Shown here in pieces: positions 1,493 to 55,893 of a DNA stretch of 60,639 nt; positions within the stretch are counted from its first letter, which is position 1, and every line of letters starts with the position of its first letter. The notes below the pieces were generated by a model that worked only from the letters and a program-made list of their open reading frames with translations, did not search any database and had not been told where the DNA came from. Source of the DNA: Pseudomonadota bacterium (GTDB taxonomy: Bacteria; Pseudomonadota; Gammaproteobacteria; Acidiferrobacterales; UBA6901); NCBI GenBank assembly GCA_021790335.1, contig JAJYEE010000015.1, forward strand, positions 1 to 60,639, in the 5' to 3' direction. The position numbers and the translations under genes were made by a program.

Positions 1493-3862
1493 TTATTCTC
1501 GTGTTTTCAGTACTGCCACCAGATCCAGCCGTCCAAGTCGCAACCATACCAAATAGCCCGACAGCAGGGCGGACGCGACGACGACGCTCGCACCCATGGC
1601 GTAGTTTTCCGGTGTGAGAATCATCGGCAGCCGGTACAGTTCGCCCTGGAACGCCACGACCAGGATACCGACGAGACCGATTCCAATTAGAAAACCGACC
1701 GGGATCGCAGCCAACGTAAGAAGCGCCAGCTCCCCCAGCAGGATATAGGCGATTTCGCCACGAGTGAAGCCCAGTACACGCAGACTGGCGAGCTCGCGCC
1801 CGCGCTCGGACAGGGAAATGCGGGCGCTGTTGTAGACTACGCCGAAACCGATGGCACCGGCGAGCAGCGTCGCCACCAGGTTGAAGAACAGGATGAATTC
1901 GCCGATTGTGTCGTAGAAGCTCTGGATGGCCGACTTGTTGGCGATCATGCCAAGTACGCGCGGGCGATCATGAAGCTCGGCATACAACTTCGCCTCCGCT
2001 CCCGGCTCCACCGCGAGATAGGCACCGGTCACGGTGTTGCCCTCACGCAGCAGCGCGTTCACCGAGTCTTTTTGCATGTAGGCCGACACACCCAGGTACT
2101 GTTTTGTGATGCCGAGTACCGGCACCTGCCGCACGGGGCGGCTGCCTTCCAGCACCTCGACCGTCAGCACGTCACCCGGCTTCACGTGCAGCATGTTGTT
2201 TGCCAGATGGTCGGTGAGCACCACCCCGCCCGGCGGCACCGGCACCGGCCTCAACTCGCGGTCAAGCGCACGGTGCAGCTGGCCCTCCGGCTGGATGCCG
2301 AACAACATGGCACGATGACTGTATTGCCCGTAGCGCAGGATCACCGGCACATCGCGATAACCCTCCACAGAGCGGACCCCCGGTAGCGCCTCCAGCTCAT
2401 GGAGCGCACGGCCGGACGTTGGATCGATCAGGGAAAGAGCCAGATCCTCACGTGCAGCCTGGCGGAACTGCACATCGACCATGAAATCGATGGCTCCTTG
2501 CTGGTAGTTGCCAACCATCATCAGCCCGCAGGCGCAGGCAATGCCTACTACGGTAAGGAATGACTTCAGCGGGCGCCACCCGATATGACGCAGAATCATT
2601 CGCGAGGGTGCACTAAGCCAACGCTTGAGGCCCATGCGCTCGACCAGACTGGTGCGGTATGCCACCGGCATCTCCGGACGCATGCCCTCGGCCGGCGGAA
2701 GCCGTACCGCGCGCATGACGGAAACCAGGGTCCCGCTCACCGCGGCCAGCGCCGATACCACCAGCGAAAAGAGCACGACGCCCGGCTGCACCCGGTAATC
2801 CAGGTAGGGGAAACGGAATGTCGTCTCGGTGTAGACATGCGACAGCCCCCAGCCGAACCAGGTGCCGAGCGCCGCCCCGGCCGTAACGCCCAGCAATACC
2901 AGCAGCAGAACCATCATGACGTAGTGCATGGCAATGGCCAGATCGCTGTAGCCGAAGGCCTTGAGGATGGCGATCTGTTCGCGCTGCAGGGCAATCAGTC
3001 TGCTCAGCACCACATTGAGCAGGAAGGCGGCGACGCCGAGGAAAATGGCAGGGAAAATTATGACCATGGTCCGCAGCTCCTTCAGCTCCTCGCTGAGAAA
3101 GCGGTTGGATAACTGGTCTTTGCGTCCGTAAGCCCCGGTGCCCCCATAGACTGCGAGAATCGAATCGACGCGGTCGATCACATCCTGTTCGTTGGCGTGT
3201 CGGGCCAGGGTCAGGCTTACCTGATTGAAAGAACCCTCCATGTTGCAGGCCGCAGCAAGGGCATGGCGCCCCATCCACAGCACACCGAAGCGCTTGAAAT
3301 CGGGAAACATGGCGCCGGGCGCAATCTGGTAGACATATTCCGGCGCCACCGCGACACCGACCACCGTCAGCCGCTTGCGCTTCCCGTGGATGATCGCGGT
3401 AAGAAGGTCACCTGGCTGCAGGTGGTGGGCATCGGCAAAGGTATCGGTAATCACCACCTCGTCGGTGCTCCAGGGACGTACCAGACGCCCGCGCTTGATA
3501 TAGAGGCGGTTGAGTTGCGCCTGGCCGACATCCGGGAGAGACAGGATCTGGCCAGTAATGGGGTCGGGAAAGCCCTCCACTTCCAGCTTCACCCCGGTCG
3601 TTACCGCTGTCTCCATGCGTTGTACCCCGGGGATCGCTGCGAGCCGCTCCGCCACCGGCTCAGGAGCGCGCTTCAGGCTGTCGAACACATCAGCGAGATG
3701 GTATTCGCTATAGAAACGGTCGCGGGTATCGACCAGGGAATCATAGGTGGAAAGCGATATCACCAGGGTGGCGACACCGCCCATGATTACCGCGGCAATT
3801 GCCAGCATCTGGCCACGCATGTGCCAGAGATCGCGTAGCAATTTGCGGTTGAGGACACGCAC
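1493..3862 (-). CDS. FtsX/MacB-type ABC transporter permease
   Basis: A 789-residue permease with a short cytoplasmic start, a first membrane helix (MLAIAAVIMGGVATLVISL, about 17-35), a large periplasmic MacB-like domain, three helices around 265-400, a second helix-plus-periplasmic-domain repeat and a final helix bundle. This duplicated FtsX layout is typical of single-chain permeases of the DevC/LolE-like exporter class. The first codon is GTG. It lies 3 bases after the small upstream ORF and 18 bases before the HlyD-type gene, so it is co-transcribed with the ATPase. Such permeases work mechanically, passing substrate from the outer leaflet or periplasm to the adaptor. The substrate is unknown. 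Confidence 0.88.
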   Translation of the reverse strand: MRVLNRKLLRDLWHMRGQMLAIAAVIMGGVATLVISLSTYDSLVDTRDRFYSEYHLADVFDSLKRAPEPVAERLAAIPGVQRMETAVTTGVKLEVEGFPDPITGQILSLPDVGQAQLNRLYIKRGRLVRPWSTDEVVITDTFADAHHLQPGDLLTAIIHGKRKRLTVVGVAVAPEYVYQIAPGAMFPDFKRFGVLWMGRHALAAACNMEGSFNQVSLTLARHANEQDVIDRVDSILAVYGGTGAYGRKDQLSNRFLSEELKELRTMVIIFPAIFLGVAAFLLNVVLSRLIALQREQIAILKAFGYSDLAIAMHYVMMVLLLVLLGVTAGAALGTWFGWGLSHVYTETTFRFPYLDYRVQPGVVLFSLVVSALAAVSGTLVSVMRAVRLPPAEGMRPEMPVAYRTSLVERMGLKRWLSAPSRMILRHIGWRPLKSFLTVVGIACACGLMMVGNYQQGAIDFMVDVQFRQAAREDLALSLIDPTSGRALHELEALPGVRSVEGYRDVPVILRYGQYSHRAMLFGIQPEGQLHRALDRELRPVPVPPGGVVLTDHLANNMLHVKPGDVLTVEVLEGSRPVRQVPVLGITKQYLGVSAYMQKDSVNALLREGNTVTGAYLAVEPGAEAKLYAELHDRPRVLGMIANKSAIQSFYDTIGEFILFFNLVATLLAGAIGFGVVYNSARISLSERGRELASLRVLGFTRGEIAYILLGELALLTLAAIPVGFLIGIGLVGILVVAFQGELYRLPMILTPENYAMGASVVVASALLSGYLVWLRLGRLDLVAVLKTRE

Positions 3863-3865
3863 GGA

Positions 3866-4165
3866 TCAGGGCGCCGTGCGCGTGGCCCGTCTGCGGGAGA
3901 ATGCGCGTTTTGACCGGTCCGCCGGGAGCGGGTAGATCCGTAGCATGGCGGTCGGTACAGTACGGAACTCCTCTGGCGACGCGACGGACCCGCGATGCGT
4001 GCCTGACGGCAGACCAGGCAATGTCCTCCCCGGCGGGTTGCGGGAGTATGTGAGAATCTTGAGCAGCACGACACACTCGATCGGCGGTCGCAGCGCCGTG
4101 CGCCAATCCGGAAAAAATCGTTGCCAGAGTTTCGGCCCGCTGTCATCGGAGTCCGGCGCACTCAT
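3866..4165 (-). CDS. Possible small protein between ATPase and permease
   Basis: A 99-residue frame starting with ATG ([14 protein letters not shown]), 5 bases after the ATPase stop and ending 3 bases before the permease start. That is the spacing expected of a real operon member. The protein is basic at the C-terminus ([15 protein letters not shown]), rich in Pro and Arg, and has one weakly hydrophobic stretch ([13 protein letters not shown], about 29-41). I recognise no family. It could instead be an untranslated gap that happens to stay open at high GC. Only the tight packing supports it. Confidence 0.35.
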
Positions 4166-4170
4166 GGACA

Positions 4171-4905
4171 CTACCAACTCAGAGCGTGCGCGGCGCGCTT
4201 GTGGGCATTTCGTCGTTCTTCCGCAATGCGGCCGTCAGACAGCCGAATCACACGATCCGCCATGTCGGCAATACCGACGTTGTGGGTGATCAGAACGGTC
4301 AGCGTGCCCAGCTCGCGATTCACCATTTCCAGCACCTCAAGCACCACGACACCGGTGGCCGAATCGAGCGCCCCGGTCGGCTCGTCGCACAGCAGCACTG
4401 CGGGATTCTTGGCCACGGCGCGGGCGATCGCCACACGCTGCTGTTCGCCCCCCGACAGCTGGGCGGGGAAATGGTCAAGCCGGTTGCCCAGCCCCACCAG
4501 CTGCAGTGCCTCTTCCGGCTGCATCGGGGACTTGGCAATTTCTGTAACCGCGGCGACGTTCTCGCGTGCAGTGAGGCTGGGAATCAGGTTGTAGAACTGG
4601 AATACGAAGCCGACATGCTCGCGCCGAAAACGCGTCAAATCGGCCTCGGAGGCACCGGTCAGCTTATGGTCGAGGTAATAGACCTCGCCGCTCGTCGGGG
4701 CATCGAGCCCACCGAGAATGTTGAGCAGCGTGGATTTGCCGCTACCCGATGGGCCGAGCAACACCACCAGTTCGCCACGATAGAGTTGCAGATCGATGCT
4801 ACGCAGCGCCGGCACCTCCACGTCGCCCAGGCGGTAAGTCTTGGTGAGGCCGCGGGCAACGAAAATGGCTTGAGTGGCGTTTTCCGAAGGCATGAAATCC
4901 ATCAT
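4171..4905 (-). CDS. LolD/MacB-type ABC transporter ATP-binding protein
   Basis: A 244-residue ATPase that would power the permease encoded downstream. It has Walker [10 protein letters not shown] (about 52), a Q-loop (FQFYNL), the signature [14 protein letters not shown], Walker [13 protein letters not shown] and a switch-region histidine (LITHN). Length and motifs match the LolD/MacB/DevA group, which pair with FtsX-type permeases. Several nearby ATG codons (MMDFM) could be the start; the first is used. It is the first gene of the exporter operon and faces cydD across a divergent intergenic region. Confidence 0.9.
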
Positions 4906-5325
4906 GCCACGCCACAGGTCGAGCAGCCAGCCAGCCTACCTTGCTGTCTTCGGCAACGGTTTCGGTCGCACCGGCGACCAGCCGTGGGATGTGCCCATCA
5001 AACGCACCCGTTGCCGCTGCTGGCCGAAGACCTTGACCAGTTCCGTCCCGATTACGCCACCGGCTCCGGGTATCGTCTGCACGCACCTATGCTTCGTTGA
5101 TGAAGACCGTCAATACAATGCATGGACCAAGCGAAAGGACCGCGGTGTCCGATATCGCCAGCTGGGCTGTCGTTCCGTAAAGTAACCATGGAAAGGCCGT
5201 AGGTGGTCGCCTGCAAACTTCGGCCCGCACCGATGCGCAGGCCTCCCTGGCCGGCATTCTGGCCGGTGGCATCAGGACTTCGATTGCGCTATCGTCGCCC
5301 GTCGACAGCGCGACAGAATCCACGC
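4906..5325. other. Divergent intergenic region between exporter ATPase and cydD
   Basis: About 420 bases that should hold promoters for both flanking operons. The only hint I see is a TTGACG on the minus strand near 5108-5113 with a weak -10 about 17 bases further. The plus frame running into cydD from 5203 has no family content before the MNVKIW start. No clear operator or terminator is visible. Confidence 0.4.
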
Positions 5326-7053
5326 ATGAACGTAAAAATCTGGCTGAACCGGGCAAGTGCACGTGCGGCACTTCCTCTGCGCGCCGCCGTTGCTCTAGGG
5401 ATCTGCGGCGGCCTGCTGCTGATCGTTCAGGCCTGGTTTCTGTCCGGAGTCATCAACGGCGCCGTGTTCGGGCACCGGGGTGTGGCGGCTGTCATGCCGA
5501 TGTTGTGGGCACTGCTCGTTGTGTTTGCGCTGCGCGCCGGAATCGCCTGGGCGTCGGAGCGGATGGCGTTTCGCGCGGCAGCCGGAATCAAGCTCGATGT
5601 CCGCCGGCAGCTGCTCGAGCATCTTTTCGCCCTCGGTCCGCTGCGGATGGTCACGGAGCGTGCCGGCGAGCTCGCGAGCACCGTCACCGACGGGGTCGAG
5701 GCCCTGGAAGCGTACTACGCCCGTTTTCTGCCGCAGATGGCGCTTGCAGCCCTGGTACCGCTTGCGATCCTGGCTGTCGTTTTTCCTTTGGACTGGATTT
5801 CCGGCTTGGTGCTTCTTGTGACCGCGCCCATGATTCCGCTCATGATGGTATTCATCGGACGCAACGCCGAGACGCTCAACCAGCGTCAATGGCGCCGCCT
5901 GGCGCGCCTGAGCGCCCACTTCCTCGACGTGCTCCAAGGACTCACCACCCTGAAGCTGTTCAATGCCAGCCGGCGCGAGGTCGCGGTCGTGGCACAGCTG
6001 TCCGATGATTACCGCAAGAGCACGATGGCGGTGTTGCGCATCGCCTTTTTGTCGTCTCTGGCCCTGGAGTTTCTTGCCACCGTGAGCATCGCCCTGGTAG
6101 CGGTGCTCATCGGATTCCGGCTGCTGTGGGGGGAGCTTGGGTTCCGTGCGGGATTCCTCATCCTGCTGCTTGCCCCGGAGTTCTATCTCCCCCTGCGCGC
6201 CCTGGGAACCCACTACCATGCGCGCATGGAGGCCATCGGCGCCGGTGAGCGCATCGTGCAGCTGCTCGAGACCCCTGCCCCGCCGCCTCCGGTGGCGGCC
6301 ATGGTATTGCCTGCAACCCGCCGTATCGGCATCGGCCTGCACAACGTGCGCTGTGTCTATGAGCCCGGACGGGTGGCTCTGGACGGTGTATCGATCAACA
6401 TCGCGCCCGGAGAACGCGTTGCCCTGGTCGGCCCCTCGGGAGCGGGCAAGACCACGGTAGTCAACCTGCTGCTCGGGTTCGTGCGCCCCGAGGCTGGGGA
6501 AGTGCTCATCAACGGTCTCGCGCTCAGTGAACTCGATCCGCAGCAATGGCTGGAACACGTCGCCTGGGTGCCGCAAAACCCGCGCATTTTTCACGGAACC
6601 GTGCATGACAACATCTGCCTGGGGCGGACCGGTGCCGGACGGGATGCGGTACGCATGGCGGCACGCCTGGCTCTGGCGGAGGAATTCATCGAGGCACTGC
6701 CGCTCGGCTACGACACCATCGTCGGCGAGGGCGGTCAGGGGCTGTCGGGCGGACAGGCACAGCGCCTGGCTCTGGCGCGCGCCTTTTTCAAGGATGCGCC
6801 GGTGGTGCTGCTCGACGAGCCGAGCGCGAATCTCGATCTGGAAAACGAACGCAGGCTAATCACCGGAATCGGCCTGCTTGCCAAGGATCGCACCACGATA
6901 ACCATTGCGCACCGTCTCAACACCGTGACGCGCGCCGATCGCATTGTCGTGCTTGATCGCGGACAGGTCGTGGAAACGGGCACTCACCGCGAGCTTCTGG
7001 ACCGGCCGGGCCTGTACCGCAGGCTCGTCGGACGCTATGCGGAGGCCGGATGA
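5326..7053 (+). CDS. cydD: CydD, heterodimeric ABC exporter subunit (cysteine/glutathione, cytochrome bd assembly)
   Basis: Forms with CydC the inner-membrane ABC exporter of thiols (known for E. coli: glutathione and cysteine) that is needed for cytochrome bd maturation. The 575-residue protein has six membrane helices in about residues 20-310 followed by the ATPase domain: Walker A GPSGAGKTT, signature LSGGQAQRLALARA, Walker B VVLLDEPSANLD and IAHRLNT. The open frame continues upstream, but MNVKIWLNRASARAAL is chosen because the CydD-like membrane region begins there. It overlaps cydC by four bases (ATGA), so the two are translationally coupled. cydABX lies just beyond in the opposite direction. 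Confidence 0.92.
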   Translation: MNVKIWLNRASARAALPLRAAVALGICGGLLLIVQAWFLSGVINGAVFGHRGVAAVMPMLWALLVVFALRAGIAWASERMAFRAAAGIKLDVRRQLLEHLFALGPLRMVTERAGELASTVTDGVEALEAYYARFLPQMALAALVPLAILAVVFPLDWISGLVLLVTAPMIPLMMVFIGRNAETLNQRQWRRLARLSAHFLDVLQGLTTLKLFNASRREVAVVAQLSDDYRKSTMAVLRIAFLSSLALEFLATVSIALVAVLIGFRLLWGELGFRAGFLILLLAPEFYLPLRALGTHYHARMEAIGAGERIVQLLETPAPPPPVAAMVLPATRRIGIGLHNVRCVYEPGRVALDGVSINIAPGERVALVGPSGAGKTTVVNLLLGFVRPEAGEVLINGLALSELDPQQWLEHVAWVPQNPRIFHGTVHDNICLGRTGAGRDAVRMAARLALAEEFIEALPLGYDTIVGEGGQGLSGGQAQRLALARAFFKDAPVVLLDEPSANLDLENERRLITGIGLLAKDRTTITIAHRLNTVTRADRIVVLDRGQVVETGTHRELLDRPGLYRRLVGRYAEAG

Positions 7054-8786
7054 ACCCGTTGCGGCGCCTCGTGCGCCTGTTCCTGCCCTACTGGCGCTGG
7101 ATGGGGCTGGGGGTGCTGGTTTCTCTGGTAGTGGTGCTGGCGAACATGGCGCTGCTCGGTGTAGCCGGCTGGTTCCTCGCTGCCATGGCTGCCGCCGGCG
7201 CCGCGGGTGGCATCATGAACTATCTGCTGCCGGCGGCAGCAATCCGTGCCTTTGCCATCCTGCGCACCGGCGGGCGCTACCTGGAACGCGTCGTCACCCA
7301 TGAGGCGACGCTGCGCTTCCTCTCCGGTCTGCGGGTGTGGTTTTACGAGCATATCGAACCGCTCGCGCCCGCAGGGCTGCAGGGCTACCAGAGCGGGGAC
7401 CTGCTGAGCCGCATCGGCGCGGATATCGATTCACTCAACAATCTGTACTTGCGAACCCTGGTGCCCATGGCGGTGGCGGTCATATCGGCGCTGCTCGCTT
7501 TTGCCTTTCTGACCCGGTACAGCCTTGCGCTGGCAGCCGTCAACCTCGCATTCCTCGTGCTGGTCGGCGCTGCGATCCCGATAGCGGCTCACCGTCTCGG
7601 TGCCCGACCGGGGGCACGTCTGGTGGAAGCGTCCTCACGGCTGCGACTGGCAGTGATCGATGGAGTGCAGGGCATGGGTGAACTGGCGGCCTTCGGCGCC
7701 GCGCGCGCACACCTCGAGCAGACCGACCTGCTCAGCCACGAGCTGACGGCGGATCAGGAACGGATGAGTCGGATCGCAGGCAGCGTCTCCGCAGCGTCCG
7801 GTCTCATGACCAATCTCTCGGTCTGGCTCGCCACATTGCTCGGCGTAGTCCTCGCGCACCACCGACAGGTCGCGACCGTCGACCTGCCCATGCTCATACT
7901 GGTTGTGATGGGCAGCTTCGAAGGCGTCGCTCTGCTGCCCCAGGCCTATCAGTACCTGGGGCATACGCTTGCCGCCGCGCGGCGCATCTTCGCCGTAATC
8001 GACACGCCACCGCCGGTCGCCGATCCGCCGGACGCGTCTCCGCGGCCGCGGGACAGCGGACTCGAGTTCCGGGGAGTGGGTCTGCGCTACACGCCGTCCG
8101 GCCCGTGGGCACTCGCGGATATCGACCTCGACCTCCCGCACAGCCGGCGCGTTGCCATCGTCGGCCCCTCGGGCGCCGGCAAGAGCAGCCTGATCAGCCT
8201 GCTGGTCCGCTTTCGGGAATACGAGACGGGCGACATCCGCCTCGGCGGATACTCGCTGCGAAGTTTCCGGGGCGAAGACCTGCGCCGCATGATCAGCGTC
8301 GTGCCGCAGCGGCCGCACCTGTTCAATGCCACGGTACGCGAGAATCTGCTGCTCGCTGCTCCCGGGGCAGACCAGGCCAGGATCGAAGCTGCGGCGAAAG
8401 CGGCGCAGATACATGAGGACCTGGCTGCCCTGCCCGAGGGTTACGACAGCTTCGTGGGCGAGGCGGGTCTGAAACTCTCGGGCGGACAGGTGCGGCGGCT
8501 GGCGATCGCCCGGGCGCTTCTGAAGAACGCACCGATTCTCATCCTGGACGAACCCACCGAGGGCCTGGATGCCGCTACCGAACAGGCGCTCATGGATAGT
8601 CTGCTCGCGGTCACGAGCAATCGTACACTGCTGCTCATCACCCATCGACTGAGCGCACTCGAGCGCATGGACGAGGTGGCGGTCATGGAGGAAGGTCGCA
8701 TCATCGAACGCGGCAGCCATGCCGACCTGATGAATGGCACCACCCGTTATCGCCAGATGCACGCCGTGCTGGCGCCCTCGCCCTAG
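7050..8786 (+). CDS. cydC: CydC, heterodimeric ABC exporter subunit (cytochrome bd assembly)
   Basis: Partner of CydD in the thiol exporter. The 578-residue protein begins MNPLRRLVRLFLPYWRW, has six membrane helices to about residue 300, then Walker A GPSGAGKSS, signature LSGGQVRRLAIARA, Walker B ILILDEPTEGLD and the switch motif ITHRLS. The start overlaps the cydD stop as ATGA. It converges with cydX, with only about 45 bases between the stops and no clear hairpin there. Having both transporter and oxidase at one locus supports the assignment over a generic exporter. Confidence 0.92.
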   Translation: MNPLRRLVRLFLPYWRWMGLGVLVSLVVVLANMALLGVAGWFLAAMAAAGAAGGIMNYLLPAAAIRAFAILRTGGRYLERVVTHEATLRFLSGLRVWFYEHIEPLAPAGLQGYQSGDLLSRIGADIDSLNNLYLRTLVPMAVAVISALLAFAFLTRYSLALAAVNLAFLVLVGAAIPIAAHRLGARPGARLVEASSRLRLAVIDGVQGMGELAAFGAARAHLEQTDLLSHELTADQERMSRIAGSVSAASGLMTNLSVWLATLLGVVLAHHRQVATVDLPMLILVVMGSFEGVALLPQAYQYLGHTLAAARRIFAVIDTPPPVADPPDASPRPRDSGLEFRGVGLRYTPSGPWALADIDLDLPHSRRVAIVGPSGAGKSSLISLLVRFREYETGDIRLGGYSLRSFRGEDLRRMISVVPQRPHLFNATVRENLLLAAPGADQARIEAAAKAAQIHEDLAALPEGYDSFVGEAGLKLSGGQVRRLAIARALLKNAPILILDEPTEGLDAATEQALMDSLLAVTSNRTLLLITHRLSALERMDEVAVMEEGRIIERGSHADLMNGTTRYRQMHAVLAPSP

Positions 8787-50209: not shown

Positions 50210-52102
50210 TCAGGTCACTTCCGCCTTGTTGCCGTTTTTCTCCAGCCATTCCTTGCGGTCAGGGGCGCGTTTCTTGGCGAGCATCATGTCCATGATGCGG
50301 TTGGTGTCGTCGCCGGCCTTGATTTCCAGCTGCACAAGCCTGCGGGTGTTCGGATCCATGACAGTCTCACGCAACTGCATTGGATTCATTTCGCCGAGAC
50401 CTTTGAATCGCGTGATGGTGGGGCGCGCACGCGGATTCTCCTTCTGGATCCGTTCGAGGACCTGCCTGCGCTCGTCCGCATCGAGCGCGTAATACACCGA
50501 CTGTCCGACATCAACACGGAACAGCGGCGGCATCGCCACATGCACGTGGCCGGCAGCCACCAGCGGCTTGAAGTGCCGCACGAACAGCGCGCACAGCAGC
50601 GTCGCGATATGCGCTCCGTCGCTGTCGGCATCCGCCAGAATGCAAACCTTTCCGTAACGCAGCCCGCCGAGGTCGCTTGATCCCGGATCCACGCCGAGCG
50701 CCACTGCGATGTCATGCACTTCCTGTGAAGCAAGTACTTGCGTAGGATCCACCTCCCAGGTATTCAGTATCTTCCCGCGCAGCGGCATAATCGCCTGAAA
50801 ATTCCGGTCACGCGCCTGCTTGGCCGACCCTCCGGCGGAGTCGCCCTCGACCAGAAAAAGCTCAGTCATCGCCAGATCTGTGGACAGGCAGTCGGCGAGC
50901 TTGCCAGGCAGGGCCGGCCCGTTGCCGACTTTCTTGCGTTCGACCCGTTTTGCGGTGCGCTGCCGTTCCTGCGCCGAATCTATCGCGAGGTTGGCGATCC
51001 GCTGCGCGTCCGCGACATGCTGCATGAGCCATTGGGCGAACGCGTCCTTGACGACAGAGCCGACCAGGGCCGCCGCATCGCGCGAGGTCAGGCGCTCCTT
51101 GGTCTGTCCGGAGAATTGCGGATCACGCAGCTTGCAAGAAAGCACATAGGCGGTCCGCCCCCAGACGTCCTCGGGCGCAAGCCGCACTCCGCGTGGCAGC
51201 AGATTGCGGAATTCGCAGAATTCGCGCAGCGCATCGGTCAGACCCTGGCGGAAGCCGTTCACATGCGTTCCGTCCTGCGGGGTCGGAATCAGATTGACGT
51301 AGCTGTCCATCAGGGGCCGGTCATTCTCCGGCGCCCAGGCGATCGCCCAGTCGAGCTCGGCGTCATTGTCCTTGAATTGGCCGACGAACGGTTCGGCCGG
51401 AATCAGTTCCTGCCCGCCCGTCTCGCTGAGCAGGTAATCCCTCAGTCCATCCTCGTAACACCACTGCTCGCTGTTCGCGGGATCGGACTCGTCGGAAAAT
51501 GTGATCATCAACCCCGGACACAGCACCGCCTTGGCGCGCAACACGTGCTTGAGTTTCGGGACGTGAAACTTCGGGCTGTCGAAGAACCTTTCGTCCGGCC
51601 AGAAGCGCACCGTGGTACCAGTCGCGCGCGCACCTACCGATCCGGTCGCCTTTAGCTCCGCGGTCTTTTGCCCGTCGGCGAACGCCATCTTGTATTCCTT
51701 GCCTGCGCGCCGGACGTACACCTCGAGCTTCTTCGACAGGGCATTGACCACTGACACGCCCACACCATGCAATCCGCCGGAAAAATCATAGTTCCTGTTC
51801 GAGAACTTCCCGCCGGCATGCAGGCGCGTAAGAATCACTTCCACCCCTGAAACGCCTTCACCTTTATGCCTGTCGACCGGCATACCACGGCCATCGTCAG
51901 TCACCGCCAGCGAGCCGTCGTTGTACAGCACCACGTCTATGCGCTTAGCGTGACCGGAAATCGCCTCATCCACCGAATTGTCGATGACCTCCTGGGCGAG
52001 GTGATTCGGGCGCTGCGTATCAGTGTACATCCCGGGACGCTTGCGCACGGGCTCGAGGCCGGTGAGCACCTCGATTGCAGACGCGTCGTAGGCTTGGCTC
52101 AT
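50210..52102 (-). CDS. parE: DNA topoisomerase IV subunit B
   Basis: ATPase subunit of topoisomerase IV. The 630-residue length suits ParE, not the longer GyrB of many proteobacteria. It has GHKL motifs (EVIDNSVDEAISG; GLHGVGVSVVNALS) and the TOPRIM EGDSAGGSAKQARDRNFQA with CILADADSDGAHI. ATG at 52102 (MSQAYDASAIEVL) is chosen over a 32-codon longer frame. It lies 83 bases upstream of parC. Confidence 0.95.
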   Translation of the reverse strand: MSQAYDASAIEVLTGLEPVRKRPGMYTDTQRPNHLAQEVIDNSVDEAISGHAKRIDVVLYNDGSLAVTDDGRGMPVDRHKGEGVSGVEVILTRLHAGGKFSNRNYDFSGGLHGVGVSVVNALSKKLEVYVRRAGKEYKMAFADGQKTAELKATGSVGARATGTTVRFWPDERFFDSPKFHVPKLKHVLRAKAVLCPGLMITFSDESDPANSEQWCYEDGLRDYLLSETGGQELIPAEPFVGQFKDNDAELDWAIAWAPENDRPLMDSYVNLIPTPQDGTHVNGFRQGLTDALREFCEFRNLLPRGVRLAPEDVWGRTAYVLSCKLRDPQFSGQTKERLTSRDAAALVGSVVKDAFAQWLMQHVADAQRIANLAIDSAQERQRTAKRVERKKVGNGPALPGKLADCLSTDLAMTELFLVEGDSAGGSAKQARDRNFQAIMPLRGKILNTWEVDPTQVLASQEVHDIAVALGVDPGSSDLGGLRYGKVCILADADSDGAHIATLLCALFVRHFKPLVAAGHVHVAMPPLFRVDVGQSVYYALDADERRQVLERIQKENPRARPTITRFKGLGEMNPMQLRETVMDPNTRRLVQLEIKAGDDTNRIMDMMLAKKRAPDRKEWLEKNGNKAEVT

Positions 52103-52270
52103 CGGACCGGAAGGGGTGTGCCGGAAGCGGGATCGCTGCCGAAATAAACGGAAGGCTGCGGATGTACGCGCGACCGGTCTGCGACCAGCCGCCCGCATGC
52201 TCCGGGGACCACGATAAACAGCCTGGCTTCTGTCATTGGCGGCGCATTATAGCGTGCCGCGCGCAAAGCG

Positions 52271-52882
52271 TCAGCCGGTTAAATCGCGCGCGAGTGCTGC
52301 GCGCGCCTCGTCCGGCAGCTTCTCGACGGAATGGGAGTAGGCAGGATGTTCGATTCCCATGGCCAGTGCCGCACCGGATTTCACGGCCTGCACCATGGCA
52401 GGATCGAGCTCGAAGCGCAGAAAATGAACGGATGAGGTCTTCTCCGATGTGGCACGTTCCAGATCCTCGTCGGCGATCGCCCAGACACGATCAAATCCCG
52501 CCACGCACACCCAGACCTTGCGTTCGACGCCGATCATGCTTGCCAGCGCCACCTGGCGCTCGTCTTCTCGCGCGTACTCGATCATGAAGGTTGCTTTCCA
52601 GTTGCGGCCGTCCGGAATTAGCGGATTATAGGTTGCGATCTCTTCCTCGATGCCTTGCGCCTCGAAAATCCGCTCGGCACGCAGCATCTCCTGCACCTGG
52701 TACCACATCGTAAGCGCGTCCTCGAAGTAAAGGGTCGCGTGCGGTCCGATCGGCACCCTGCGATTGAGTTTGTGCGCCATCACGGTGGCGCGGAAGTCAT
52801 TGCGCACCCGGTCGTACTGCTCCAGGGACAGCAGACCCGCGCGGGTGAGTTTCTGCGTAGCAATGCAATCGGCTTCAGTCAC
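52271..52882 (-). CDS. DUF3501 family protein
   Basis: A 203-residue soluble protein of the DUF3501 family, recognised by RRVPIGPHATLYFEDALTMWYQVQEML and the RNWKATFMIEY segment. The function is unknown. In other genomes the family tends to lie beside rubrerythrins and GlpC-like Fe-S proteins, as here, which points to oxidative or iron stress. The start is GTG, nine bases after the EncFtn stop, so the two are almost certainly co-translated. The start residue is not certain; KLTRAGLLSLEQY is where the family similarity begins. Confidence 0.82.
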   Translation of the reverse strand: MTEADCIATQKLTRAGLLSLEQYDRVRNDFRATVMAHKLNRRVPIGPHATLYFEDALTMWYQVQEMLRAERIFEAQGIEEEIATYNPLIPDGRNWKATFMIEYAREDERQVALASMIGVERKVWVCVAGFDRVWAIADEDLERATSEKTSSVHFLRFELDPAMVQAVKSGAALAMGIEHPAYSHSVEKLPDEARAALARDLTG

Positions 52883-52891
52883 GGGAACGCC

Positions 52892-53191
52892 CTACGACTT
52901 GTGCTTCCCTTCCAGGGCAACGATAGGCTTGTCGGTGAACACATAATCGCGCAGCTCCTTGTCAAAAGCCGGATCGTGCCGACGGATCCACTCGAGGATC
53001 ATGGCGGCATGCTCCTTTTCCTCGTCACGATTGTGCGCGAGAATCGCGCGCAACTCCTTGTCCTTGCACGCGTCAACGCGCTGATTGTACCAATCAGCCG
53101 CTTCCAGCTCCTCCATCAGGGAAACGATCGCGCGATGCATGTCGCGCGTCTCCTCGCGCAGCTCGGTTTCGTGGTAGCCCTCGCTTGCCAT
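52892..53191 (-). CDS. Encapsulated-ferritin-like (EncFtn) protein without cargo tail
   Basis: A 99-residue two-helix ferritin-like protein. It aligns over the core with the encapsulated ferritin of Rhodospirillum rubrum: MEELEAADWYNQRVDA and AHNRDEEKEHAAM. The ferroxidase ligands correspond to Glu28, Glu58 and His61, with Trp34 nearby. In R. rubrum a C-terminal tail sends the protein into an encapsulin shell made by the next gene. Here the protein stops at VALEGKHKS without such a tail, and no HK97-like shell gene is in the window. Its role is likely iron oxidation or detoxification as a free oligomer. Confidence 0.82.
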   Translation of the reverse strand: MASEGYHETELREETRDMHRAIVSLMEELEAADWYNQRVDACKDKELRAILAHNRDEEKEHAAMILEWIRRHDPAFDKELRDYVFTDKPIVALEGKHKS

Positions 53192-53270
53192 ATCATCTCC
53201 TCAGTCAATGAAGCTAACAGTGCATGCCGGTCATGCGGGCTGGTTGCTCTGCCTCGGACAAATGCTGCGT

Positions 53271-54617
53271 TCAGATCCCGTATGCGGCACGCAGCAGGGA
53301 CAGCGGGTGCTCCGGCGCCTTTCCGGTGGCGAGACCGTTTTCGATCTGATGCCCTGCCATGGGGCAATCGCTACTGAAGTGATCCGCCGCCGCCTGCCGC
53401 ACGCGCTCGACCACCGGTCCTGCAATCTTCATCGAGCTTTCGTGAAACTCGCTCTTGACCGCATAGGTTCCATCGTGCCCGGAACAGCGCTCGATCGCAT
53501 CGACTTGCGTCTGCGGCACCAGCTGCAGCAGATCGCGCGTCTTCATGCCGATGTTCTGCACCCGCAGATGACAGGCGACATGGTAGGAGATCCTGCCGAG
53601 CGGCTGCTTGAAATCGGTACGCAGTTTGCCGTCCTTGTGACGCAGCATCAGGTACTCGAAGGGATCGAAAATGGCGGCCCGCACCTTGGCGACGTCCGGA
53701 TCTTCGGGAAACATCAACGGCAGCTCCTGCTTGAACATCAGCACACAGGAAGGCACCGGTGCGACGATGTCCCAGCCTTCGTCCACCAGGCGTACCAATA
53801 GCGGAATATTTACCTCTTTGGCGCGTTCCACCGCGCCGAGATCACCGAGTTCAAGCTTGGGCATCCCGCAGCAGCGCTCCTTCTCGGCAATGGTAACCGG
53901 GATGCCGTTATGGCGAAACACCGCGACAAGATCATCATTCAGTCGTGGCTCATTGTAATTGCCGTAACAGGTGGCGAACAGCGCCACGCGCCCGCGCGTG
54001 GCGGTAGTGGGCTCGGCCTGCGCCGCTACGGCACCGTCATCGTGCCACCGCTTGAGAAAAGTATCGCTGTGATACGCCGGTACGGGAGCATGGGGATGGA
54101 CATGCAGAGTCTTGTCGAGCACCTTGCGGAACAGACCGTTTCGATTCGCGGCATTGACGAACTGCACGACCACGGGGATGCCTGCCAGACGTCCGACCGT
54201 ATCGGTGCTCGTCAGGATGCGATCCCGCACCCGGGTATCGCCCTTGCGGAACTTTACCGCCTTGGCGCGCAACATCAGGTGCGGAAAGTCCAAGTTCCAA
54301 GGATGCGGCGGCACGTAGGGGCACTTGGTCATGTAGCACATGTCGCACAGATAGCAATGGTCCGCAATCTGCCAGAACACGGACTTCGGGACACCATCGA
54401 GTTCCATCGTCTCGGAAGCATCGATGGCATCAAACAGCGTCGGGAATGCCTGACACAGGCTGAAGCAGCGGCGGCAACCATGGCAGATGTCGAAGACCCG
54501 CTCCATCTCCTTGATCAGGGCGCCTTCGTCGTAGAACTGGGGATTCTTCCAATCCAGGGGATGGCGTACTGGGGCTTCAAGATTCCCTTCGCGGCCGCCC
54601 TGAGTGGTTACAGCCAT
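53271..54617 (-). CDS. GlpC/HdrD-like Fe-S oxidoreductase
   Basis: A 448-residue protein with two [4Fe-4S] motifs, CHGCRRCFSLCQ (about 45) and CYLCDMCYMTKCP (about 87), then two CCG domains. The first has CYGNYNEPRL and ERCCGMPKLE; the second has ACHLRVQNIG and ERCSGHDG, where the second Cys is replaced by Ser. Such proteins pass electrons to or from quinones or disulfides, as GlpC or heterodisulfide reductase D do. ATG at 54617 is used; the frame is open 29 codons further. It lies between rubrerythrin and the EncFtn gene and could supply electrons to either. Confidence 0.87.
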   Translation of the reverse strand: MAVTTQGGREGNLEAPVRHPLDWKNPQFYDEGALIKEMERVFDICHGCRRCFSLCQAFPTLFDAIDASETMELDGVPKSVFWQIADHCYLCDMCYMTKCPYVPPHPWNLDFPHLMLRAKAVKFRKGDTRVRDRILTSTDTVGRLAGIPVVVQFVNAANRNGLFRKVLDKTLHVHPHAPVPAYHSDTFLKRWHDDGAVAAQAEPTTATRGRVALFATCYGNYNEPRLNDDLVAVFRHNGIPVTIAEKERCCGMPKLELGDLGAVERAKEVNIPLLVRLVDEGWDIVAPVPSCVLMFKQELPLMFPEDPDVAKVRAAIFDPFEYLMLRHKDGKLRTDFKQPLGRISYHVACHLRVQNIGMKTRDLLQLVPQTQVDAIERCSGHDGTYAVKSEFHESSMKIAGPVVERVRQAAADHFSSDCPMAGHQIENGLATGKAPEHPLSLLRAAYGI

Positions 54618-54746
54618 AATCTGCCCCGCCCGTGGTTGAACTGACTTATGTAACGCATCCCGGCGCGTCGCCTGATCCCGTTTGCCCGACAGCCCGATCG
54701 GCAACTGCGCCGGGGACAGGGAAACCCTCCCCCTCGGCGCTATCGA

Positions 54747-55169
54747 TTACTTGCCGAGACTGTCCAGAGCTTTCTGAAAACGGTTGGCGTGAGAGCGCTC
54801 GGCTTTGGCGAGAGTCTCAAACCAGTCTGCAATCTCGTTAAAACCTTCCTCGCGTGCGGTTTTGGCCATGCCGGGATACATGTCGGTGTACTCATGGGTC
54901 TCGCCCGCGATGGCGGATTTCAGATTGTCGCCGGTGCTTCCGATCGGCAGGCCGGTGGCCGGATCGCCAACAGCCTCCATGTACTCGAGATGACCGTGCG
55001 CATGGCCGGTTTCCCCTTCGGCGGTGGAGCGGAATACGGCGGAGACATCGTTGAAACCTTCGACGTCTGCCTTGGAGGCGAAATACAGGTAGCGGCGGTT
55101 GGCTTGGGATTCGCCAGCGAAGGCGTACTTCAGGTTCTCGTGGGTCTTGCTGCCCTTCAGACTTTTCAT
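54747..55169 (-). CDS. Rubrerythrin-like di-iron protein lacking rubredoxin domain
   Basis: A 140-residue four-helix di-iron protein that reduces hydrogen peroxide in related systems. Ligands are visible as the ferritin-like pairs [35 protein letters not shown] and [10 protein letters not shown]. The C-terminal CxxC rubredoxin domain of classical rubrerythrin is absent (the protein ends DSLGK), as in sulerythrin or symerythrin types, so an external electron donor is needed; the GlpC-like protein is a candidate. The promoter carries a PerR-type box. It is the first gene of a four-gene run. Confidence 0.92.
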
Positions 55170-55224
55170 ATTCTAGGTCTCCATGTTGTCAGACTCTTCT
55201 AACCAATAAGCGCATGTGCTTATT

Positions 55225-55262
55225 TTAGAATCATTCTAAGTCTGTCCCACCAATCCTGTCAA
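55225..55262 (-). promoter_or_regulatory. Rubrerythrin promoter with PerR-type box over the -10
   Basis: On the minus strand TTGACA (55257-55262) and TAGAAT (55233-55238) are 18 bases apart. TTAGAATCATTCTAA at 55225-55239 is a perfect 7-1-7 palindrome of PerR/Fur-family form and fully covers the -10. A metal- and peroxide-sensing Fur-family repressor would block this promoter. The regulator gene is not in the window. Confidence 0.72.
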
Positions 55263-55893
55263 CGGTCATATTAGGGGTGAAACGCATGACGAACCATGAT
55301 CTCGATCAAATCCCGGTAGCGAGCAACCTCCCAGGACCAATGGAATCCCACGCCCTGGACCGGACAACGATCAATGCTGTATCCATGGCACCGGACCCGC
55401 CGCACCGCACTGCCCGGGCTCTGCACTTCAAGGAAACATCGGTTCGCGCGGCCATCCGGGCGGGGCACCCTTGCCGAGTAGCCGTTTGGGAACGACAGCT
55501 TGGGGCCGATCTCGATTTGCGGAGCCCCCGATGATGGGTCGGTTCGGTGGCTGACGGGTTCATCGGGTCGATCAGGCTCCACATGCTGCGGCTTGTCTGC
55601 GGCTTTCTATACAAACCCCGAGAACGATCTGTCCGGAATTACAGACAGCAGGAGGGCGGAAAAGTACCGCCACACACACCGCCGGTGCGTTCCCGTTCGC
55701 TCGGACCGAGGCCTGGTGCGCATTTCCGTATTCCGGAACCCGGCTGGATCACGAGCCGCCAAACCGACACAGGTAGAATAAATGCCGGCGGACGGCGCCT
55801 GCTGCGGCCGCAGACCGCATATGATGATATTGCTGTCCAGACCGGAAACCGACCCCAAACTGCCTGTCGGGACGAACGAAATGAAATAAAGGA
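55263..55893. other. Gene-poor region between rubrerythrin promoter and pilB
   Basis: About 630 bases with no gene I can support. Short frames exist on both strands (for example 55271-55582 minus and 55277-55534 plus), but none has family features, a good ribosome site or neighbours. I see no repeat, transposase remnant or tRNA. Confidence 0.4.

Follow-up and report, generated by a model that had tools for sequence, protein, structure and literature searches.

The combination of a rubrerythrin (RBR), the Fe-S protein RFO and a DUF3501 protein was described in 2016 by Cardenas et al., who found all three together in 185 of 4461 genomes and RBR with DUF3501 but no RFO in 25 (PMC5114695). It is also present in mitochondria and has been suggested to have existed in the mitochondrion of the last eukaryotic common ancestor (PMC7050145). 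A three-gene form occurs in Acidihalobacter (PMC7760498), and a paper of 2020 reported a cluster of this kind that includes a ferritin-like gene (PMC7852563). Here, we analyze a locus of this kind in a stretch of 60,639 nucleotides (hereafter the window; contig JAJYEE010000015.1 of assembly GCA_021790335.1, a Pseudomonadota bacterium of the class Gammaproteobacteria), in which a gene encoding an EncFtn protein accompanies the other three.

A rubrerythrin of the same type, the ferriperoxin of Hydrogenobacter, is a proven peroxidase that is required for aerobic growth and that obtains its electrons in vitro from NADPH and FNR (PMC3317640). Relatives of EncFtn oxidize Fe2+ (PMC5012862, PMC7762939), and according to a review of 2020, EncFtn needs an encapsulin cage for its mineral cores to stay in solution (PMC7762939).

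The original prediction, made from the DNA letters of the window, had ranked these four genes as its best candidate for an incompletely described system. This ranking does not hold, with the core three published in 2016 and known from mitochondria, and a ferritin-like member noted in 2020; PMC5114695 rules out that the module as such is undescribed. The four genes themselves are confirmed, and their original interpretation is supported in part. On balance, we lean modestly towards reading the locus as an aerobic-type rubrerythrin operon, RBR-RFO-DUF3501, with a shell-free EncFtn built in, including the mechanism proposed below.

A probable rubrerythrin operon with an additional EncFtn gene

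The list of open reading frames of the window contains four genes on the minus strand, encoding a rubrerythrin, RFO (a GlpC-like Fe-S protein), EncFtn and DUF3501, which are separated in gene order by 129, 79 and 9 bases:

54747..55169, minus strand: rubrerythrin, single-domain aerobic type (140 amino acids; PF02915, 106.9 bits)
53271..54617, minus strand: RFO Fe-S protein (448 amino acids from ATG; CCG domain, 48 bits)
52892..53191, minus strand: short EncFtn of the s-FLP type (99 amino acids; PF22277, 139.7 bits; TIGR04535, 128.6 bits with a cut-off of 125)
52271..52882, minus strand: DUF3501 protein (203 amino acids, GTG start; PF12007, 241.3 bits)

The Pfam matches of all four proteins exceed the respective cut-offs. 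Coordinates and domains thus agree with the four same-strand genes of the original prediction, and the gaps of 129 and 79 bases are those it had given. The features of the aerobic-type module, namely a rubrerythrin lacking rubredoxin, a co-localized DUF3501 gene and a co-localized gene for a CCG Fe-S protein, are all present.

In a Pfam search, the rubrerythrin matches PF02915 and a Ferritin domain only; it had been expected to lack a rubredoxin domain of its own, and none was found. Residues E20, E53, H56, E90, E93, E124 and H127, which we take to be the ligands, are conserved in all 23 alignment rows. The closest solved chains are 9onm, 4di0 and 8fuh (E 2e-77 to 3e-77), of which 4di0 has been placed in the aerobic rubrerythrin group (PMC5114695).

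RFO carries 15 cysteines that are invariant in every alignment row covering them, and GlpC/HdrD-kind electron-transfer subunits keep such cysteines. Together with its CCG match, this places it among the CCG-domain Fe-S oxidoreductases. Membership in GlpC proper was rejected, the scores being below the equivalog cut-offs (237.3 versus 278 and 164.3 versus 279.9), and a Pfam match to HopA1 was dismissed as chance (20.2 bits, cut-off 22.7). No relative was found in the PDB at E 0.01, and the predicted structure is poor (mean pLDDT 58.9). Because the cysteines are conserved, the earlier suggestion that this protein donates electrons to the rubrerythrin appears plausible. Alternatively, ferredoxin or FNR could feed the rubrerythrin as in ferriperoxin, with RFO and DUF3501 helping to mature or repair the di-iron site. 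We consider this somewhat unlikely: the Hydrogenobacter enzyme does use NADPH and FNR (PMC3317640), and RBR-DUF3501 pairs do occur without RFO, both in the 25 published genomes (PMC5114695) and at a second locus of the window's own genome, but a repair factor would hardly require the 15 cysteines that RFO retains.

This second rubrerythrin-DUF3501 pair (L005, contig C26, positions 3639-7480) lies in a row of genes encoding an OxyR-like protein, a catalase-like protein, rubrerythrin and DUF3501, the first two named by eye. The same genome therefore holds two such pairs, one in an OxyR setting and the other behind the palindrome described below.

For DUF3501, a solved relative is available in 3fjv (E 4.3e-54), which is also the only clear match in a fold search (Z 25.3, root mean square deviation 2.3 over 192 residues). 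The next one, CrdA, reaches Z 6.7 with a deviation of 3.2 over 95 residues; the matches after 3fjv reflect no more than commonly occurring arrangements and carry no information on the function of DUF3501. Since no cysteine is invariant among nine DUF3501 sequences, the protein is probably not an Fe-S protein. Five genomes (G300, G311, G061, G259 and G303) contain DUF3501 within long open frames of 418-715 amino acids, perhaps RFO fusions like those of Nitrosomonas in PMC5114695.

Linkage of EncFtn and DUF3501 in other genomes

We surveyed 369 genomes of the class, with PF04454 as the sole encapsulin family searched. After removal of 13 partial or weak rows from 116, the EncFtn set comprised 103 full-length genes in 98 genomes. 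Of these genes, 21 have a listed DUF3501 gene at a distance of no more than 4 kb, 20 are found beside an encapsulin gene, 62 are near neither, some of them close to contig ends, and none is near both. The 21 linkages to DUF3501 come from 17 families and are all on the same strand; by a rough hand estimate, about 0.1 would be expected by chance. This supports the earlier claim that the four genes form one module. It had also been stated that rare co-occurrence of the four elsewhere would speak against such a module. As published, the three core genes are widespread, but EncFtn is optional: it adjoins 21 of 150 DUF3501 genes (adjacency is based on 150 listed genes, the presence tally on 160 genomes), and only 21 of the 103 EncFtn genes are so placed. 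EncFtn and DUF3501 are present together in 67 genomes (odds ratio 4.1, P 7e-9, ignoring kinship), and DUF3501 is missing from 31 of the 98 genomes with EncFtn.

For a closer comparison, 29 cluster loci were available: 20 fetched ones, the window and eight named ones, including two pairs of duplicates (L016/L157 and L047/L158). The eight are from the named EncFtn loci, which represent the best 80 of at least 545 confirmed relatives. The order RBR-RFO-EncFtn-DUF3501 is found in 22 of the 29 loci; three further ones are cut by a contig end, three have EncFtn after DUF3501, and one is partial. Directly after the genes RBR-RFO-DUF3501-EncFtn of L158/L047 follows an OxyR-like gene, so the four genes can adjoin a different peroxide regulator. 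A sample of 75 genomes of the phylum (19 of the class, including that of the window, and 56 of other classes) contained no EncFtn-DUF3501 pair within 4 kb besides the window; in this small sample, EncFtn is present in seven genomes and DUF3501 in six.

These data also bear on the possibility that EncFtn is a neighbor rather than a partner, that is, a stand-alone cytoplasmic ferroxidase that sometimes borrows the promoter of the rubrerythrin operon. We take this explanation seriously without favoring it. It agrees with the 62 EncFtn genes near neither DUF3501 nor a shell gene and with the EncFtn genomes devoid of DUF3501. A parE-like gene adjoins 13 of 27 clusters, which suggests vertical descent, and hence an inherited position, for many of them. 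In a tree of 100 EncFtn proteins, 15 of the 19 shell neighbors lie on one side together with two lone proteins, and the DUF3501-linked ones are scattered and fall into no single clade. Their distribution takes 17 changes, of which starred branches force at least three, and 48 of 500 shuffles gave a number as low. The tree is poorly resolved, with 47 of 96 inner branches open, so the direction in which linkage was gained or lost is not readable from it. The 21 same-strand linkages in 17 families, most of them with EncFtn placed alike after RFO and before DUF3501, are nevertheless more than we would expect drift to retain, and we prefer EncFtn as a built-in member of the operon.

EncFtn proteins without a Family 1 encapsulin shell

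The best solved match of the window EncFtn is 3k6c (NE0167; E 1.4e-44). With PF22277 and TIGR04535 scored above their cut-offs and E28, E58, H61 and Y35 conserved in 27 of 27 rows, it has both the fold and the ferroxidase residues of its family, in line with the predicted role as an iron oxidizer. It also shows the features of an s-FLP, a core with a short C-terminus and no targeting peptide: read by eye, its tail comprises 11 residues without a targeting motif. There is no shell gene in the operon, and no Family 1 encapsulin (PF04454) was found in the genome, which has one EncFtn and is represented by a 97.6% complete assembly; Family 2 shells were not searched. The original prediction had missed this lack of a tail and a shell. 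Earlier encapsulin matches of 30-35% identity were explained by the excessive length of a translated reference and by GC-rich frames, and were superseded by the family searches.

In the class, 79 of the 98 genomes with a full-length EncFtn lack a Family 1 encapsulin, and all 19 shell-bearing genomes carry an EncFtn adjoining the shell. We read the tails of 101 of the 103 proteins by eye (G079 and G187 were left out). All 19 unfused shell-adjoining proteins have tails of at least 24 residues that carry a motif of the targeting type; in L218 it is incomplete. This motif is absent from all 21 DUF3501-linked and 60 lone proteins, and 80 of these 81 tails are no longer than 13 residues. The remaining one, lone EncFtn L193 (G074), has a lysine- and proline-rich tail of 32 residues, likewise without the motif. 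At L222 (G196, contig C227), the EncFtn frame continues into an encapsulin match, either because EncFtn and shell are naturally fused or because two frames were joined.

It could be argued that the short EncFtn is not shell-free and is packed in a shell missed by the Family 1 model, such as a Family 2 encapsulin. The shell search was indeed confined to PF04454 in a 97.6% complete assembly, and s-FLPs could carry an undefined binding sequence (PMC11202242). We regard this as very improbable: in the 19 shell genomes, the shell-adjoining EncFtn is tailed in 18 and reads into the shell in G196, and where such genomes hold a further copy, DUF3501-linked in G014, G196 and G247 and lone in G236, that copy has no tail.

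We tentatively propose that shell-free EncFtn proteins are a class of their own and the common form in these bacteria, acting as soluble cytoplasmic ferroxidase rings. In the operon, such a ring might give iron to, or take ferrous iron and peroxide from, a complex of rubrerythrin, RFO and DUF3501 under control of a repressor of the Irr/PerRA branch. If so, the need of EncFtn for an encapsulin would apply to a minority only. The 79 genomes without a Family 1 encapsulin mean either that these proteins have another role with iron or that the cage rule is incomplete.

Promoter, palindrome and candidate regulator

Upstream of the rubrerythrin gene, we identified two overlapping features:

55233..55262, minus strand: σ70-like promoter, TTGACA-18-TAGAAT (11 of 12 matches)
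55225..55239, no strand assigned: candidate operator, a perfect 7-1-7 palindrome, TTAGAATGATTCTAA, over the –10 element (pattern search)

A promoter-like site by itself proves little, since a scan of the region found two sites versus 1.1 in shuffles. The other site in 52100-55500 begins in the end of the DUF3501 gene and faces a downstream parE-like gene. The gaps between the genes had been thought to leave room for internal promoters; the scan shows no σ70-like site there, and the first gap contains a hairpin instead. From its sequence, the four-gene set is apparently under a single switch, and the placement of the operator over the –10 element would suit a repressor. 7-1-7 palindromes are shared across the Fur family, and the one found here appears to resemble the iron-control element.

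The palindrome is the sole TTAGAN5TCTAA site of the window, and none occurred in 100 shuffles. The genome contains two such sites and one of the backward-read pattern; the second site is at position 1501 of L223 (contig C47), TTAGATCATATCTAA. With up to three mismatches allowed, 18 of 25 clusters carry the palindrome ahead of their rubrerythrin gene (17 of 23 after removal of duplicates), where shuffles would give 0.38, and an unguided dyad search recovered the same motif, TAGAN5TCTA, in 20 of 25. At the same tolerance, it precedes none of the EncFtn genes inside clusters (0/29), alone (0/60) or linked to a shell (0/19). An operator common to lone EncFtn genes was thereby rejected (0/60, and 0/72 in an overlapping named set), and a dyad search of their upstream regions yielded nothing beyond an apparent ribosome site, the start codon and the coding start. 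Because the genome-wide frequency of the palindrome often matches that of the backward-read control, only its position counts as evidence.

Three Fur-family proteins are encoded in the genome of the window. One is Fur (L225; 205.7 bits, cut-off 146), one is Irr/PerRA-like (L226; 124.7 bits versus a cut-off of 150 for IrrA, and 117 versus 170 for Irr), and the third is Zur-like (115.4 bits, cut-off 167); no PerR model scored above its cut-off with any of the three. For the class, we defined Irr-like regulators by E under 1e-24; these are distinct from the Fur matches. They occur in 151 genomes, in 117 of 160 with DUF3501 versus 34 of 209 without (odds ratio 14, P 4e-29, ignoring kinship). At least one palindrome box is present in 109 of 117 DUF3501 genomes with an Irr-like gene versus 24 of 43 without one (P 2e-7). 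Among DUF3501-less genomes, the link is weak (25/34 versus 97/175, P 0.06); in this tally, the list of boxless genomes comprises 114 of the 115 implied. A box 1.9-2.4 kb upstream of DUF3501 was found in 12 of 14 genomes with an Irr-like gene and in 2 of 8 without (P 0.008), a comparison of 22 listed genomes that covers only genomes with a box and leaves uncounted the box of G350, which lies beyond its regulator gene. In five genomes (G093, G255, G351, G214 and G250), the Irr-like gene abuts DUF3501 on the opposite strand.

The inferred regulator of the palindrome is thus a Fur-family candidate of the Irr/PerRA branch. The promoter had originally been called PerR-like: the palindrome over the –10 element and the Fur-family type stand, but the regulator reads better as a member of this branch. 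That the palindrome instead belongs to a true PerR or to Fur is unlikely in our view. The shape of the palindrome is shared in the Fur family, Fur itself is present, and DUF3501 genomes without an Irr-like gene do have boxes, anywhere in 24 of 43 and in place in two of the eight listed, one of these (G178) being only 72% complete. On the other side, Irr-like genes follow DUF3501 across the class, follow the box in DUF3501 genomes both anywhere and in place, show little link to it where DUF3501 is missing, and adjoin DUF3501 in the five genomes named above.

A hairpin downstream of the rubrerythrin gene

The gap of 129 bases between rubrerythrin and RFO contains a further element:

54707..54740, minus strand: GC-rich bulged hairpin, candidate attenuator or partial terminator (14 pairs, no T-tract, just past the rubrerythrin stop codon)

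Its folding energy is –32.6 kcal/mol over 57 nucleotides (z –3.4). Of 23 clusters, 21 have a stem of at least nine pairs after the rubrerythrin gene; p is ≤0.02 versus shuffles in 19 of the 23, and a T-tract is present in 12. The stem finder left two clusters uncounted, one of them that of the window, in whose hairpin the bulges left it only 6 pairs (p 0.495). In gaps of at least 25 bases, no such stem was found between RFO and EncFtn (0/15) or between EncFtn and DUF3501 (0/12); where EncFtn follows DUF3501, two of three gaps contain one, none exceeding shuffles. A GC-rich inverted repeat, read by eye, is also located right after the stop codon of the second rubrerythrin gene of the genome (L005, 6849-6868).

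Proposed mechanism

Based on these observations, we propose the following model. A repressor of the Irr/PerRA branch would sit on the palindrome and be released when iron/haem or peroxide rises. A partial stop of transcription at the hairpin would then yield rubrerythrin in bulk, and RFO, EncFtn and DUF3501 in lesser amounts by read-through. H2O2 would be reduced at the predicted di-iron site of rubrerythrin, with electrons from RFO, which would substitute for the missing rubredoxin domain. In the cytoplasm, EncFtn would oxidize Fe2+, probably as a free ring, and so remove the Fenton partner of peroxide. DUF3501, at a guess, would aid assembly or coupling of the rubrerythrin-RFO pair.

Several observations weigh against this reading. 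The demonstrated electron route for this type of rubrerythrin is NADPH-FNR and not RFO (PMC3317640), the role assigned to DUF3501 is guesswork, and the second rubrerythrin-DUF3501 pair of the same genome has neither RFO nor EncFtn close by. EncFtn is optional and mostly lone (62/103, some near contig ends), its DUF3501-linked members are barely closer together on the tree than after shuffling of the labels, and the co-occurrence statistics ignore phylogeny. The palindrome is genome-wide often no commoner than its backward-read control, the score of the Irr-like protein (124.7) stays under the curated Irr cut-off of 150, and the hairpin of the window is bulged and lacks a T-tract.

The operon offers a concrete place for testing these ideas, as it unites an enzyme acting on peroxide with its likely electron source, an iron-oxidizing protein and the uncharacterized DUF3501. 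Should a role of RFO or DUF3501 be found, it would extend to some eukaryotes, given that the core three have been proposed for the ancestral mitochondrion (PMC7050145).

Comparison with known systems

As in the module of PMC5114695, a single-domain rubrerythrin, a COG0247-type Fe-S protein with a CCG domain and DUF3501 are co-localized in the window; unlike there, an EncFtn gene separates RFO from DUF3501. The covered part of that paper makes no mention of the palindrome, the hairpin or a link to an Irr-like regulator. In a partial literature search, we found neither EncFtn named as part of the RBR-RFO-DUF3501 module nor a repressor of the Irr/PerRA branch tied to it. Operons of hot-spring Blastocatellia and of Sideroxydans resemble the one described here in combining RBR, COG0247, DUF3501 and a "DNA-binding ferritin-like protein" (PMC7852563). 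The Sideroxydans operon includes OxyR. The ferritin-like gene of these operons is called DPS in that paper and may be an EncFtn.

The window EncFtn shares fold, ferroxidase residues, short C-terminus and lack of a targeting peptide with the s-FLP 3k6c (NE0167). In PMC11202242, s-FLPs are filed among the encapsulated FLPs with their encapsulation left open, whereas the gene of the window lies in a rubrerythrin operon of a genome without Family 1 encapsulin. The EncFtn of Rhodospirillum rubrum (PMC5012862) belongs to the same family, and the equivalents of its residues E32, E62, H65 and Y39 are kept; the window protein, in contrast, has no targeting tail and no Family 1 shell gene nearby or elsewhere in the genome. 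Archaeal Flp-fusion encapsulins (PMC8346489) likewise contain an EncFtn-type domain, and rubrerythrin genes are often part of their operons. There, mostly in Crenarchaeota, the domain is fused to the shell protein, whereas it is unfused here. With respect to regulation, mbfA of Rhodobacter (PMC3413700) is similar in having a Fur-superfamily regulator and an Irr-box at the start site of a rubrerythrin-like gene; it differs in that it encodes another rubrerythrin-like protein, in Alphaproteobacteria, and in that the window regulator is below the curated Irr cut-off. Compared with these systems, what is new here is the shell-free EncFtn, which joins the operon repeatedly though not always, the palindrome with its candidate regulator of the Irr/PerRA branch, and the hairpin.

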